Positions 21,715-31,567 of a stretch of DNA of 35,300 bases are shown piece by piece; positions within the stretch are counted from its first letter, which is position 1, and each line of letters starts with the position of its first letter. The position numbers and the translations under genes were made by a program. Under the pieces are notes generated by a model. That model saw nothing but the letters and a program-made list of their open reading frames with translations. It did no database searches and was not told the DNA's origin. Origin of the DNA: a virus; IMG/VR virus record IMGVR_UViG_3300032284_003091, positions 1 to 35,300 of that record. One strand, given 5' to 3'.

Positions 21715-21744
21715 TTGTCAGTCCCCCCAGCTAGGGTATAGATT
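21715..21744 (+). promoter_or_regulatory. Probable promoter for the 21772 gene cluster
   Basis: TTGTCA (21715-21720) could be a -35 box. Downstream, TATAGA (21737-21742, spacer 16) or TAGATT (21739-21744, spacer 18) could be the -10. The stretch between contains a run of six C followed by GCTAGGG. It lies in the 61-base gap between the ribbon-helix-helix gene and the next gene, whose ATG at 21772 follows AAAGGGGATACAA. It is a prime candidate for control by the protein encoded just upstream. Confidence 0.4.
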
Positions 21745-21771
21745 ACAACCACTAGTTCAAAGGGGATACAA

Positions 21772-22161
21772 ATGATAGACATCAAATCGTTAACAAACGA
21801 AGCTAAACAATTTATTGCGTTAAAAGAGCAAATTAAATTTTTAAGCGATCGACAAAAAGAAATTAAAGAGCGTTTACAAACAGCTCTACAAGAAGATGGC
21901 GAAGTAGACGGCCGTGGACATATAACATTAGAACTTGATGAAAATATCAAGATTACAAATCAACGTCGTGAATCAAGAACCCTTGACGAAAACCTTGCAG
22001 AGTCAATGCTTAAAGAAAAAGGCATCTATGACAAGTGCATTAAAATGGTTCCAACACTTCAAGAAGATTCTATTATGGCTTCTGTTTATACAGGAGAGCT
22101 AACAGAACAAGACATTGATTTATTATTTCCAGCAAAGGTAACTTACGCTTTCCTACTATGA
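21772..22161 (+). CDS. Unrecognised coiled-coil-like protein, 129 aa
   Basis: AAAGGGG lies upstream at good spacing. Residues 1-45 (AKQFIALKEQIKFLSDRQKE then IKERLQTALQEDGEVDGRGH) look like a heptad-type coiled coil leading to a beta-rich segment (HITLELDENIKITNQRRESR). The C-terminal half ends with LTEQDIDLLFPAKVTYAF. The layout is broadly like small phage proteins of the Gam/Gp157 kind, in which a helix precedes a strand pair, but I cannot support that call. No catalytic residues are apparent. Confidence 0.65.
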   Translation: MIDIKSLTNEAKQFIALKEQIKFLSDRQKEIKERLQTALQEDGEVDGRGHITLELDENIKITNQRRESRTLDENLAESMLKEKGIYDKCIKMVPTLQEDSIMASVYTGELTEQDIDLLFPAKVTYAFLL

Positions 22162-22639: not shown

Positions 22640-23311
22640 ATGGGCGTACAACAAACACCGCCGGATGCATCAGCATACGGAGTAGCAGTTGACGAAGCTT
22701 TCTCAGTGGAAGATCGTCCAGCTCAATCAACAAGCACTGTTTCAGCTGTTAAGGCTGGATGGGATGCTGCCGAAGAACTAACACCTCAGCTTAAGGAATT
22801 TCCTACTGAGTACAAGCACTCTGAGCAACTTCAGTTGATTAAGTTTCTTGATCAATCTGGACCATTTGCTAACTATCGCCAACACTTTCTAAGCAACAAG
22901 CTTGAAGGCCGACGTTCATATGTCTGCATTGGTGATAATTGCCCACTTTGTATCACACTTGATAACAAGCCTGAAACAAAGCGTGGTTTTTCTATTGTTA
23001 ACCTTTCAGCTAAACCGTTCCAACGTCAAATGCTGATTGCAACACCACGTTTGTACAAAACTTTGCATGCTGGAGAGTATTCGCCACAAGGTCCACTAAC
23101 TAAGAACTTTTGGGCGCTTAACCGCACAGGACAAAAGCAACAGACTGTGTACAACTTGATGTCAGTAAAAGCCCGTGACCTACAGGAAGACTGGGGTCTT
23201 AATGAGGCCGATGTAGAGACTGCACTTGCAGCTTTTAAGCCATTTGAATCGTCTGAAATCCGTACGGATTCATACGCAGCGTTGGTAGAAGTCGCAGAGA
23301 GCCTGCTCTAA
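22640..23311 (+). CDS. Putative gp32-like single-stranded DNA-binding protein, 223 aa
   Basis: The frame is open from about 22577, but I start at the ATG at 22640, because AAAGGAG (22625-22631) precedes it at good spacing and upstream codons overlap the preceding gene. FPTEYKHSEQLQLIKFLDQS then GPFANYRQHFL is an aromatic/basic core, followed by YVCIGDNCPLC, a C-x4-CPLC cluster that resembles the zinc site of gp32-type proteins. Position directly before the DNA polymerase supports this role. The N-terminal part is Ala/Ser-rich and the C-terminus acidic-leaning. The identification is inference from motif and context. Confidence 0.45.
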   Translation: MGVQQTPPDASAYGVAVDEAFSVEDRPAQSTSTVSAVKAGWDAAEELTPQLKEFPTEYKHSEQLQLIKFLDQSGPFANYRQHFLSNKLEGRRSYVCIGDNCPLCITLDNKPETKRGFSIVNLSAKPFQRQMLIATPRLYKTLHAGEYSPQGPLTKNFWALNRTGQKQQTVYNLMSVKARDLQEDWGLNEADVETALAAFKPFESSEIRTDSYAALVEVAESLL

Positions 23312-23322
23312 ACTATAGATGT

Positions 23323-23372
23323 CTAAAGGCGCCAGAACTATCCCCTCTGGCGTCTTTAGGCTTTAGGGGATA
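23323..23372 (+). promoter_or_regulatory. Hairpin/pseudoknot before DNA polymerase gene
   Basis: CTAAAGGCGCCAGA (23323-23336) pairs with TCTGGCGTCTTTAG (23346-23359), a 14-bp stem with one G-T wobble, closing a 9-base loop ACTATCCCC. TATCCCC in the loop (23339-23345) is a perfect reverse complement of GGGGATA (23366-23372), the Shine-Dalgarno stretch of the polymerase gene. CTTTAGG is repeated directly (23354-23360, 23361-23367). No T tract follows, so it is not a classic intrinsic terminator. See findings. Confidence 0.72.
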
Positions 23373-23379
23373 ACAATTG

Positions 23380-25335
23380 ATGAATATAATTACAACCAAT
23401 GATCAATTAAATGAAATGGTTGAGTATTACCTTGGACAAGATGCGTTTGCTTATGACGTTGAAACCGTCGGACCACGTAGAGGCGATACTCCTATTAATG
23501 AAGTTCTTTGGATTACTTTTGCTACTCATGGCAGGTGTGACGTTATCCCTATGGGTCATCCGAATGGTGATTTAGTAGAGGTTGTTTACCCTTTAACTGG
23601 TCAGGGAGAAAAAAGAGTACAGCAAGGTCTTCCCGCACGCCCTAGCGATTATTCAAGAGATGCTAAAAAAGCAACTAAAGTTTTTTCAGAACCAATGAAA
23701 CAGCTATTTCCAGCTGAAGTTTTTTCTATTCTTAATCCGCTTTTATTTAACGATACTATATTAAAAATAGGACACAATTTACTTTTTGATTTAACTTCCG
23801 TAGCAAAATATTACGGCGGCGAGGTCCCCCCTGGACCCTACTTTGACACAATGATTGCCTCTTTTATTTACGATAACAGAAATAAAAACAAATGCGGTTT
23901 AGCGGATTGTTTAAAGCGTGAAATTGGTTATGAAATGGTTAAAGGTGTTGGAGCAGAAGTTGAAAGGTATTCTTTTGACGAAGTTGCTCAATACGCATAC
24001 TTAGACGCTAAATACACGTTTTTACTTTGGAAAATTGTTAGCCAAAAGCTAATAGATAACGAAGTTACGGGAGTTATGAAACTTGAGATGGATGTTCTTA
24101 AAGTTTTATGTGATATGAAGTTAACTGGGGCTCCTATAGATATGGATGCACTTAACGAGTTAGATGCTCAACTTAAACTTGACATCGAAGAAGCTAAAGC
24201 TGAAATTTATAAAATTGCAGGTCGTCAGTTTAATATTAACTCAAACCCTGAAAAACAACAGCTTTTATACGGCCCTAAATCACAAGGCGGCCGTGGTTTA
24301 AAACCAAAGGTAGTAACAGCTTCCGGAGGTGATTCTGTTTCTGCAGAAGCGTTAGAGCTTTACAGAGATGAGGATCCTTTAGTGGGAGCAATGCTTAAAT
24401 ACGCAGACTTAAATAAACTTCACACAACTTATGTTGTTCCTTACTTGGGAGGGCAAGTATTGAGAACTACCGGTGGTAAATCTAAAATTGAAGAAAAAGA
24501 TAGTTTATTGATTAATAATCGTATTCATTGCGATTTTATTCAACATGGTGCTGAAACCGGACGGTTTTCTAGTAGAAACCCAAATCTTCAAAATGTTCCT
24601 TCACCACACACGCCACACGGAAAAGCTATTAGAAATCTTTTTAGAGCGCCCAAAGGTTATAAATTTGTTGTAGCGGATTACAGTCAAATTGAACCAAGAG
24701 TTATTGCTTCTTTTTCAAAAGACCCAATCATGCTTGAAAATTATCTTGAAGGTGGGGATATTTATACAGCAGTCGGAAAAGAAATGGGCGTTGATCGTAA
24801 GGCCGGTAAAGTACTTGTTCTTGCAATGTCTTATGGAGTTGGCCCTGATAAAATTTCTAGGCAAATTGGTTGTACAAAACAAGAGGCTAGAGATTTATTA
24901 GATCGATTTGCAGCTAAATTTTCTTCTATTTCTTCATATAGGACAAAGGTATTAGTTTCTACACTTAAAAAGGGCAAAGACTCAAAGCCAGTGCCTTACG
25001 TAACAACTTTAATGAATCGCCGTAGATACCTTCCAAACATGCTTTCACGGGATCCTGGAGAAAAAGCCGGGGCAGAACGTCAAGCTTTTAACACTAAAAT
25101 TCAAGGATCAGCAGCTGACATAATTAAGTTTGCAATGGTTCGAGCTCACGCAATGCTTCCTAAAGGCGCTAAACTAATACTTACAGTTCATGATGAGCTT
25201 GTAACCCTTACGCCGGAAAATTTGGCGGAAGAAACCGCTGAAGCTATTAGAGGAGCTATGGAAGGAATAAATCTATTAGAAGTACCTTTAGTTGCTGATT
25301 TAAAAATTGTTGACCGTTGGGGAGAGGCTAAATAA
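23380..25335 (+). CDS. polA: Family A DNA polymerase with 3'-5' exonuclease domain, 651 aa
   Basis: I start at the ATG at 23380 (AGGGG at 23365-23369); a TTG at 23377 is a possible alternative. The N-terminal exonuclease shows DVE (Asp26, Glu28), KIGHNLLFDLTS and YAYLDAKYTFLLWK. The polymerase shows motif A DYSQIEPR (from Asp433), motif B as R-x3-K-x7-YG (Arg473, Lys477, Tyr485, Gly486), and motif C HDE (604-606). The residue matching E. coli Phe762 is Leu481. The protein lacks a 5'-3' exonuclease domain, as usual for phage polymerases. It is the replicative polymerase of this phage. Upstream lies a candidate pseudoknot covering its ribosome-binding site. Confidence 0.95.
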   Translation: MNIITTNDQLNEMVEYYLGQDAFAYDVETVGPRRGDTPINEVLWITFATHGRCDVIPMGHPNGDLVEVVYPLTGQGEKRVQQGLPARPSDYSRDAKKATKVFSEPMKQLFPAEVFSILNPLLFNDTILKIGHNLLFDLTSVAKYYGGEVPPGPYFDTMIASFIYDNRNKNKCGLADCLKREIGYEMVKGVGAEVERYSFDEVAQYAYLDAKYTFLLWKIVSQKLIDNEVTGVMKLEMDVLKVLCDMKLTGAPIDMDALNELDAQLKLDIEEAKAEIYKIAGRQFNINSNPEKQQLLYGPKSQGGRGLKPKVVTASGGDSVSAEALELYRDEDPLVGAMLKYADLNKLHTTYVVPYLGGQVLRTTGGKSKIEEKDSLLINNRIHCDFIQHGAETGRFSSRNPNLQNVPSPHTPHGKAIRNLFRAPKGYKFVVADYSQIEPRVIASFSKDPIMLENYLEGGDIYTAVGKEMGVDRKAGKVLVLAMSYGVGPDKISRQIGCTKQEARDLLDRFAAKFSSISSYRTKVLVSTLKKGKDSKPVPYVTTLMNRRRYLPNMLSRDPGEKAGAERQAFNTKIQGSAADIIKFAMVRAHAMLPKGAKLILTVHDELVTLTPENLAEETAEAIRGAMEGINLLEVPLVADLKIVDRWGEAK

Positions 25336-31535: not shown

Positions 31536-31567
31536 TGGTCCCCACCGCAAGGGGACCATTTCTATTT
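31536..31567 (+). terminator. Rho-independent terminator
   Basis: TGGTCCCC (31536-31543), a 7-base loop ACCGCAA, and GGGGACCA (31551-31558) form a perfect 8-bp stem followed by TTTCTATTT. It lies 18 bases after the stop of the Ser/Ala-rich gene, and no gene begins before it. It is a convincing transcription unit end. Confidence 0.85.

Follow-up and report, generated by a model that had tools for sequence, protein, structure and literature searches.

A candidate pseudoknot that would mask the Shine–Dalgarno sequence of a family-A DNA polymerase gene, behind the gp32-type SSB gene of an environmental phage family

Whether the RNA between two phage replication genes can hold back translation of the second one is the question raised by the locus described here. 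The window, i.e., the whole stretch of viral DNA that was analysed (a virus record of 35.3 kb), contains a hairpin in the gap between the open reading frame at 22640–23311 and the gene of a family-A DNA polymerase. An earlier note, made from the sequence of the window, had proposed that the loop of this hairpin pairs with the Shine–Dalgarno (SD) sequence of the polymerase gene, so that a pseudoknot would mask the ribosome-binding site.

The gene upstream of the gap (22640–23311, plus strand, 223 aa, with a CPLC motif) very probably encodes a gp32-type SSB, as judged from its AlphaFold model (pLDDT 75). The top four VIA-align matches of this model were RB69 and T4 gp32 (Z = 10.1, 9.8, 8.0, and 7.8, the next match having 6.1), the alignment with the gp32 cores of RB69 and T4 spanned approximately 160 residues, and the label “gp32-like” given in the earlier note agrees with this ranking. 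Foldseek alone, applied to the same list as VIA-align, gave no significant SSB match, and no Pfam, PHROGs, or PDB match was found for the protein sequence; a homologue in Streptomyces phage LuckySocke is annotated as “SSB protein.” The downstream gene (23380–25335, plus strand) encodes a family-A DNA polymerase with a 3′–5′ exonuclease (Pfam DNA_pol_A, E = 6e-89; exo1, E = 2.5e-16; PHROG 17). Its start is either ATG at 23380 or the in-frame TTG at 23377 (TTGATG, 23377–23382); the SD spacing in the window suits TTG 23377 better, and several relatives (L259, L181, and L309) begin the polymerase at TTG. Elsewhere in the window, a terminator-like hairpin, TGGTCCCC-ACCGCAA-GGGGACCA followed by TTTCTATTTG, is located between two genes at 31536–31558.

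The SSB-like gene ends with TAA at 23309–23311, approximately 10 nt ahead of the hairpin in the gap. All elements of the candidate structure lie on the plus strand. Both arms of stem 1 (S1), placed by folding and by covariation in 54 clusters of relatives, occupy 23321–23336 (core 23323–23336, CTAAAGGCGCCAGA) and 23346–23361 (core 23346–23359, TCTGGCGTCTTTAG), the core comprising 14 bp with one G·U pair and the whole stem 16 bp when 23321–23322 and 23360–23361 are added. The 9-nt hairpin loop (23337–23345) starts with the two nucleotides AC of loop 1 (L1, 23337–23338), which would cross the deep groove of stem 2 (S2) in the geometry model, and continues with UAUCCCC (23339–23345), the anti-SD-like 5′ strand of S2. 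This segment is the exact reverse complement of GGGGAUA at 23366–23372, which is both the polymerase SD and the 3′ strand of S2; between S1 and this strand lies the loop 3 (L3) linker UUUA (23362–23365), modelled as approximately 7 nt once the foot of S1 frays. The 14-bp hairpin and its loop complementary to GGGGATA were therefore read correctly in the earlier note; the hairpin recurs throughout the relatives described below, and the loop–SD match in most of them. The RNA of 23300–23400 folds with −30.4 kcal/mol (z = −3.7), a value equalled or bettered by none of 200 shuffles. When the gap was shuffled 5,000 times with its dinucleotide content preserved, stems of 14 or more pairs arose in 3 of the shuffled sequences and loop–tail matches of 7 or more in 23, and never both in the same one. 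The direct repeat CTTTAGG, read in the earlier note as a possible two-state switch, is present in the window (23354–23360 and 23361–23367) but absent from most relatives, and that proposal was abandoned.

Relatives came from IMG/VR searches for which the query was first the upstream protein and later alignments; with the Streptomyces phages included, the alignment became too divergent for searching. Several hundred loci were obtained, many of them the same contigs repeated, and deduplication left 115 distinct SSB-to-polymerase gap sequences, including two Streptomyces phages, in 54 clusters at 90% SSB identity; some tests were carried out on an earlier set of 49 clusters, before its growth to 54. 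A collection of 50,697 phage records contained no cultured relative by SSB sequence, polymerase identity to cultured phages reached 38.8% at most (Streptomyces phage BRock), and no relative was found in GTDB genomes. The host may be an actinobacterium, judging from the distant Streptomyces phage relatives only. In two of the loci (L117:1008–1233 and L251:591–815), three tandem tRNA genes are located upstream of the replication cluster.

Every one of the 115 distinct gap sequences contains a hairpin of 10 or more pairs; it starts approximately 5–20 nt past the SSB stop codon and is 10–21 bp long, mostly 14–17. In the Streptomyces phages BRock and LuckySocke, the gene order and the hairpin are kept and the loops have no SD match; since these phages carry the hairpin without a matching loop, the hairpin probably predates the loop–SD match. 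A third Streptomyces phage, pSt2308, also has a hairpin at the corresponding place. The short stretch from the SSB stop codon to the stem (23312–23320 in the window) is fairly conserved in relatives too (TAAC..A..TAGATGTC-like) and is still recognisable in the Streptomyces phages as TTAGACAGAC.

The earlier note had named covariation in relatives as a check, and for S1 the covariation turned out to be massive. The MAFFT alignment of the window clade placed the 3′ arm wrongly; pair counts were therefore taken from structure-based arms. Across the 54 clusters, 97% of the inner ten S1 pairs form natively against 47% when the arms are swapped between clusters; the corresponding values for the 49-cluster set were 98 and 48%, the highest of 20,000 permutations reaching 58%. 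At the same time, the arms are almost wholly different between clusters (42 different inner 5′ arms among 49 clusters), and nearly every S1 position shows nearly all standard pair types. Apart from the C-run of the loop, no conserved primary sequence was found in the stem or loop among the relatives. Such covariation is strong evidence, at the level of sequence comparison, that S1 exists and that its pairing is maintained.

The evidence for S2 is of a different kind. A run of CCC or longer, adjoining the 3′ arm, is found in the loop of 44 of the 54 clusters, and a run of GGG or longer in the polymerase SD of 46; both runs occur in 43 clusters, neither in 7, the G-run only in 3, and the C-run only in 1. 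The earlier 49-cluster table (39, 7, 2, and 1, respectively) gave an uncorrected Fisher p of 3e-6. The mean longest Watson–Crick match between loop and SD was 5.37 for native combinations and 4.78 for permuted ones in the 54 clusters, the native value being above all 20,000 permutations (p < 5e-5). Within the clusters having both runs, the excess in match length was moderate (p = 0.004) and that in duplex energy borderline (p = 0.05), and the C4/G4 subset showed no significant excess of exact flanking pairs (p = 0.11). The two strands do not match in the same register everywhere, and a shift on one side is accompanied by a shift on the other: the window has UAUCCCC/GGGGAUA, L228 and L319 have CCCCUUU/AAAGGGG, L271 has ACCCCUU/AAGGGGU, and L282 has CUCCCCUU/AAGGGGAG where its relative L272 has UCCCCUU/AAGGGGA. 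Even in L301 and L319, where an extra hairpin is located inside loop 1, the C-run still stands beside S1. On the SSB tree, the C-run was independently lost approximately three times, and the G-run went the same way in 2.2 of the 3 cases, otherwise stayed, and never went the opposite way, although events so few do not give significance. Taken over the relatives, these comparisons support with moderate strength that the loop C-run and the polymerase SD are matched to each other.

Some members are one-sided: L259 has the C-run with the SD GAGG, and L184 has GGGG without a C-run. In the L259 and L226 clades, the loop keeps AATCCCCTTTCG and the SD GAGG is far from the stem, which may represent a decayed element or another pairing partner. 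In the L069/L207 clade, the C-run is lost, the conserved loop AACACGTGC contains the palindrome CACGTG, and the SD is weak (TTTTAGGATG or AAGGAACC), possibly reflecting a replaced control signal. In a pattern scan of 2.26 Mb, the element was detected at 88 junction loci; elsewhere there were just 4 hits, of which three are apparently in coding sequence and one is the L282 element read on the other strand; the idea of a genome-wide repeated motif was rejected on this count.

In the 20 nt that precede the start, GGGG was present at 46 of 50 polymerase genes (92%) and at 89 of 463 other genes of the same loci (19%). When the pairing of each SD with its upstream sequence was compared with permutations, an excess was obtained for the polymerase (z = −3.1) and for the gene at 21772 (z = −4.5, resting on 53 sequences), a weak one for the SSB start (z = −2.0), and none for the starts of the helicase gene, the RecA-like gene, and the genes at 25335 and 25777. 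Upstream pairing was weakest at the SSB start, −4.8 kcal/mol against −13.0 kcal/mol at the polymerase. The earlier proposal of a loop–SD pseudoknot masking the polymerase ribosome-binding site thus gains from S1 covariation and, for S2, from the co-occurring runs, the register-specific complementarity, and this start-site control; that loop and SD do base-pair in the transcript, and that this pairing represses, we infer.

The gene at 21772 (21772–22161), whose product has no Pfam or PHROGs match, has a second candidate element of SD masking. At 21730–21774 of the window, its SD AAAGGGGATACAAATG pairs with the upstream TTTGTCAGTCCCC in an ordinary hairpin, and in relatives the SD of this gene is buried by other sequences (TTTTCCTT/AAGGAAAA in L335–L347 and AACCCCC/GGGGGTT in L301).

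Could both stems coexist in one molecule? In an A-form model with approximately 6.2 Å per linker nucleotide, an L3 of approximately 7 nt is needed for stems of 11–17 bp. The concern of the earlier note that the last loop is too short unless the A+T-rich base of the stem frays was correct but not fatal: with 3 pairs at the foot of S1 frayed, the window sequence fits the model with S1 of 13 bp, S2 of 7 bp, L1 of 2 nt, and L3 of 7 nt. In nearly all clusters with the C-run, both stems fit with 0–3 frayed pairs, and as many as 5 S1 pairs must open because L3 is short for the full stem. Pseudoknot energies were computed with a Dirks–Pierce-type penalty and are rough. In this rough model, the window sequence prefers the pseudoknot to the hairpin alone by 2.6 kcal/mol; with geometry included, the preference is shared by 31 of the 40 clusters that have the C-run (median −2.3 kcal/mol) and by none of the 9 others, and it is absent in about a quarter of the members. 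These models suggest that an H-type pseudoknot is sterically possible and that the hairpin and pseudoknot states are close in energy, within the roughness of the calculation.

The explanation we consider probable is masking of the polymerase SD by a cis-acting pseudoknot, which would hold translation of the polymerase at a lower level than that of the SSB. A hairpin of 13–16 bp would form just past the SSB stop codon; the C-run in the 3′ half of its loop, imitating the anti-SD of 16S rRNA, would pair with the G-run SD of the polymerase gene; and the resulting S2 of 5–8 bp would stack on the hairpin to give an H-type pseudoknot, with an L1 of usually 2–7 nt and an L3 of approximately 7 nt after usually 0–3, and up to 5, pairs at the foot of S1 have opened. 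With the SD masked, polymerase translation would be lowered relative to that of the SSB from the same region. The 3′ end of actinobacterial 16S rRNA is CCUCCUUUCU, and the loop, which resembles it, would compete with it for the polymerase SD; the design may well favour masking, because the G-run SD pairs perfectly with the C-run and needs G·U with the ribosome. With an open SSB start and a polymerase SD that would be masked, the simplest reading is a built-in brake yielding much SSB and little polymerase. The SSB stop codon is approximately 10 nt from the stem, and a ribosome located there would reach the foot of S1, i.e., the very pairs that open for the pseudoknot, so SSB translation could shift the balance; more generally, the hairpin/pseudoknot balance is probably shiftable by a protein or by a ribosome that terminates at the end of the SSB gene. 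A wider proposal, that the gp32-type SSB, or its translation, sets the SSB:polymerase ratio through this pseudoknot and that SD masking is a control layer shared by the replication cluster, draws on the burial of the 21772 SD in a separately covarying hairpin in the same genomes, and we regard it as tentative.

H-type pseudoknots that include the SD or start region are known from the S15/rpsO operator and from the preQ1-II and SAM-II riboswitches, all of which possess a conserved ligand- or protein-binding core; no such core is visible here. In the leader of the repZ/repA genes of IncIα and IncL/M plasmids (cited in PMC10724649), a hairpin loop likewise pairs with sequence beside the ribosome-binding site of a replication gene; there, translation is switched on by the pseudoknot, against which an antisense RNA acts, whereas here the SD itself would be paired and no such RNA is known. 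STAXI pseudoknots, too, occur in the neighbourhood of phage and mobile-element SSB genes, but they are tandem-repeated with UUCG tetraloops (PMC2864571), in contrast to the single copy found here.

A further comparison is with the T4 replication genes. The gene 32 pseudoknot of T4, T2, and RB69 shares with the present candidate the phage context, the pseudoknot, the gp32-type SSB gene, and translational control of a replication gene. In T4, it is located 67 nt upstream of the start of gene 32 itself and does not include the SD, and repression requires gp32 binding and UUAAA repeats (PMC3014915, PMC535899); the present element follows the SSB stop codon, contains the SD of the next gene, the polymerase, and is without UUAAA repeats, while little pairing occurs upstream of the SSB gene’s own start. 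In the gene 43 operator of T4 and RB69, a hairpin likewise directly precedes the start of a phage DNA polymerase gene, adjoining or overlapping the ribosome-binding site, but it is a plain hairpin with a conserved UAAC loop and no known pseudoknot (PMC3014915), and it serves a family-B polymerase. Here the polymerase belongs to family A, the stem is variable, and the loop has, instead of a conserved UAAC, a C-run that would pair with the SD. The T4 analogy is therefore loose, since gene 32 has its pseudoknot ahead of its own start and gene 43 has no more than a simple hairpin.

This bears on the possibility that the pseudoknot is a protein operator, bound by the gp32-type SSB or by the polymerase with tightening of polymerase repression, which would add to cis-acting masking rather than replace it. 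By analogy, autoregulation by one of these proteins is plausible: the upstream protein has the gp32 fold in its structure model, T4 gp32 (through a pseudoknot) and T4 gp43 (through a hairpin) each repress their own mRNA (PMC3014915, PMC535899), and in the model the two folds differ little in energy (the median given above). However, unlike the conserved T4/RB69 gene 43 operator loop, the stem and loop keep no sequence besides the C-run, the element stands after the SSB gene and not before it, and the polymerase is not a family-B gp43; we give an operator of this kind a low probability.

A terminator or attenuator behind the SSB gene, supplying more SSB than polymerase mRNA with the loop–SD match as a secondary feature, would account for a long, often GC-rich stem right after a stop codon and followed by a short pyrimidine tract (CUUUU), as well as for a hairpin older than the C-run and present without a loop–SD match in BRock and LuckySocke. 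Actinobacterial terminators can have poor U-tracts, but the longest U-run past the stem was at most 4 in 44 of 49 clusters, at least 5 U in 8 positions occurred in only 11 of 49, the hairpin is absent from the list of the terminator scan, and the kept C-run and G-run SD would be left unexplained; termination as the main function is improbable. We are similarly disinclined to accept that only S1 matters, in 3′-end protection or processing of the SSB mRNA, with the SD merely G-rich and the C-rich loop incidental. The hairpin is indeed universal and the loop–SD match is not, and GGGG does precede 19% of the other genes, but its 92% frequency at the polymerase, the native loop–SD match exceeding every permutation over all clusters, the mostly joint loss of the two runs, and the pairing excess in the start-site control all go against it. 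A recoding pseudoknot producing an SSB–polymerase fusion by readthrough or frameshifting at the SSB stop codon, recalling the stop codon, short spacer (here approximately 10 nt), and pseudoknot of retroviral gag-pol readthrough signals, is practically discounted, and refuted as a family-wide function, by the polymerase starts lying in frames 0, 1, and 2 in 19, 13, and 17 clusters and by a further in-frame stop within the gap in 38 of 49. A riboswitch with a ligand core was rejected as well, no nucleotides being conserved beyond the C-run.

Rfam, at gathering and at permissive thresholds, gave no relevant match in the window and only tRNAs in six relatives, and the literature searched, in which subscription papers were thinly covered, held no earlier description of the element. 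Masking of an SD by a pseudoknot is a known kind of control; the placement, the architecture, and the family described here appear to be undescribed in that literature. The element would represent a second phage pseudoknot candidate at replication genes, with wide comparative support, in a large, uncultured family of environmental phages. A guess from a single sequence has become a defined RNA family with predicted mutants, and control of the SSB:polymerase ratio in phages becomes directly testable.
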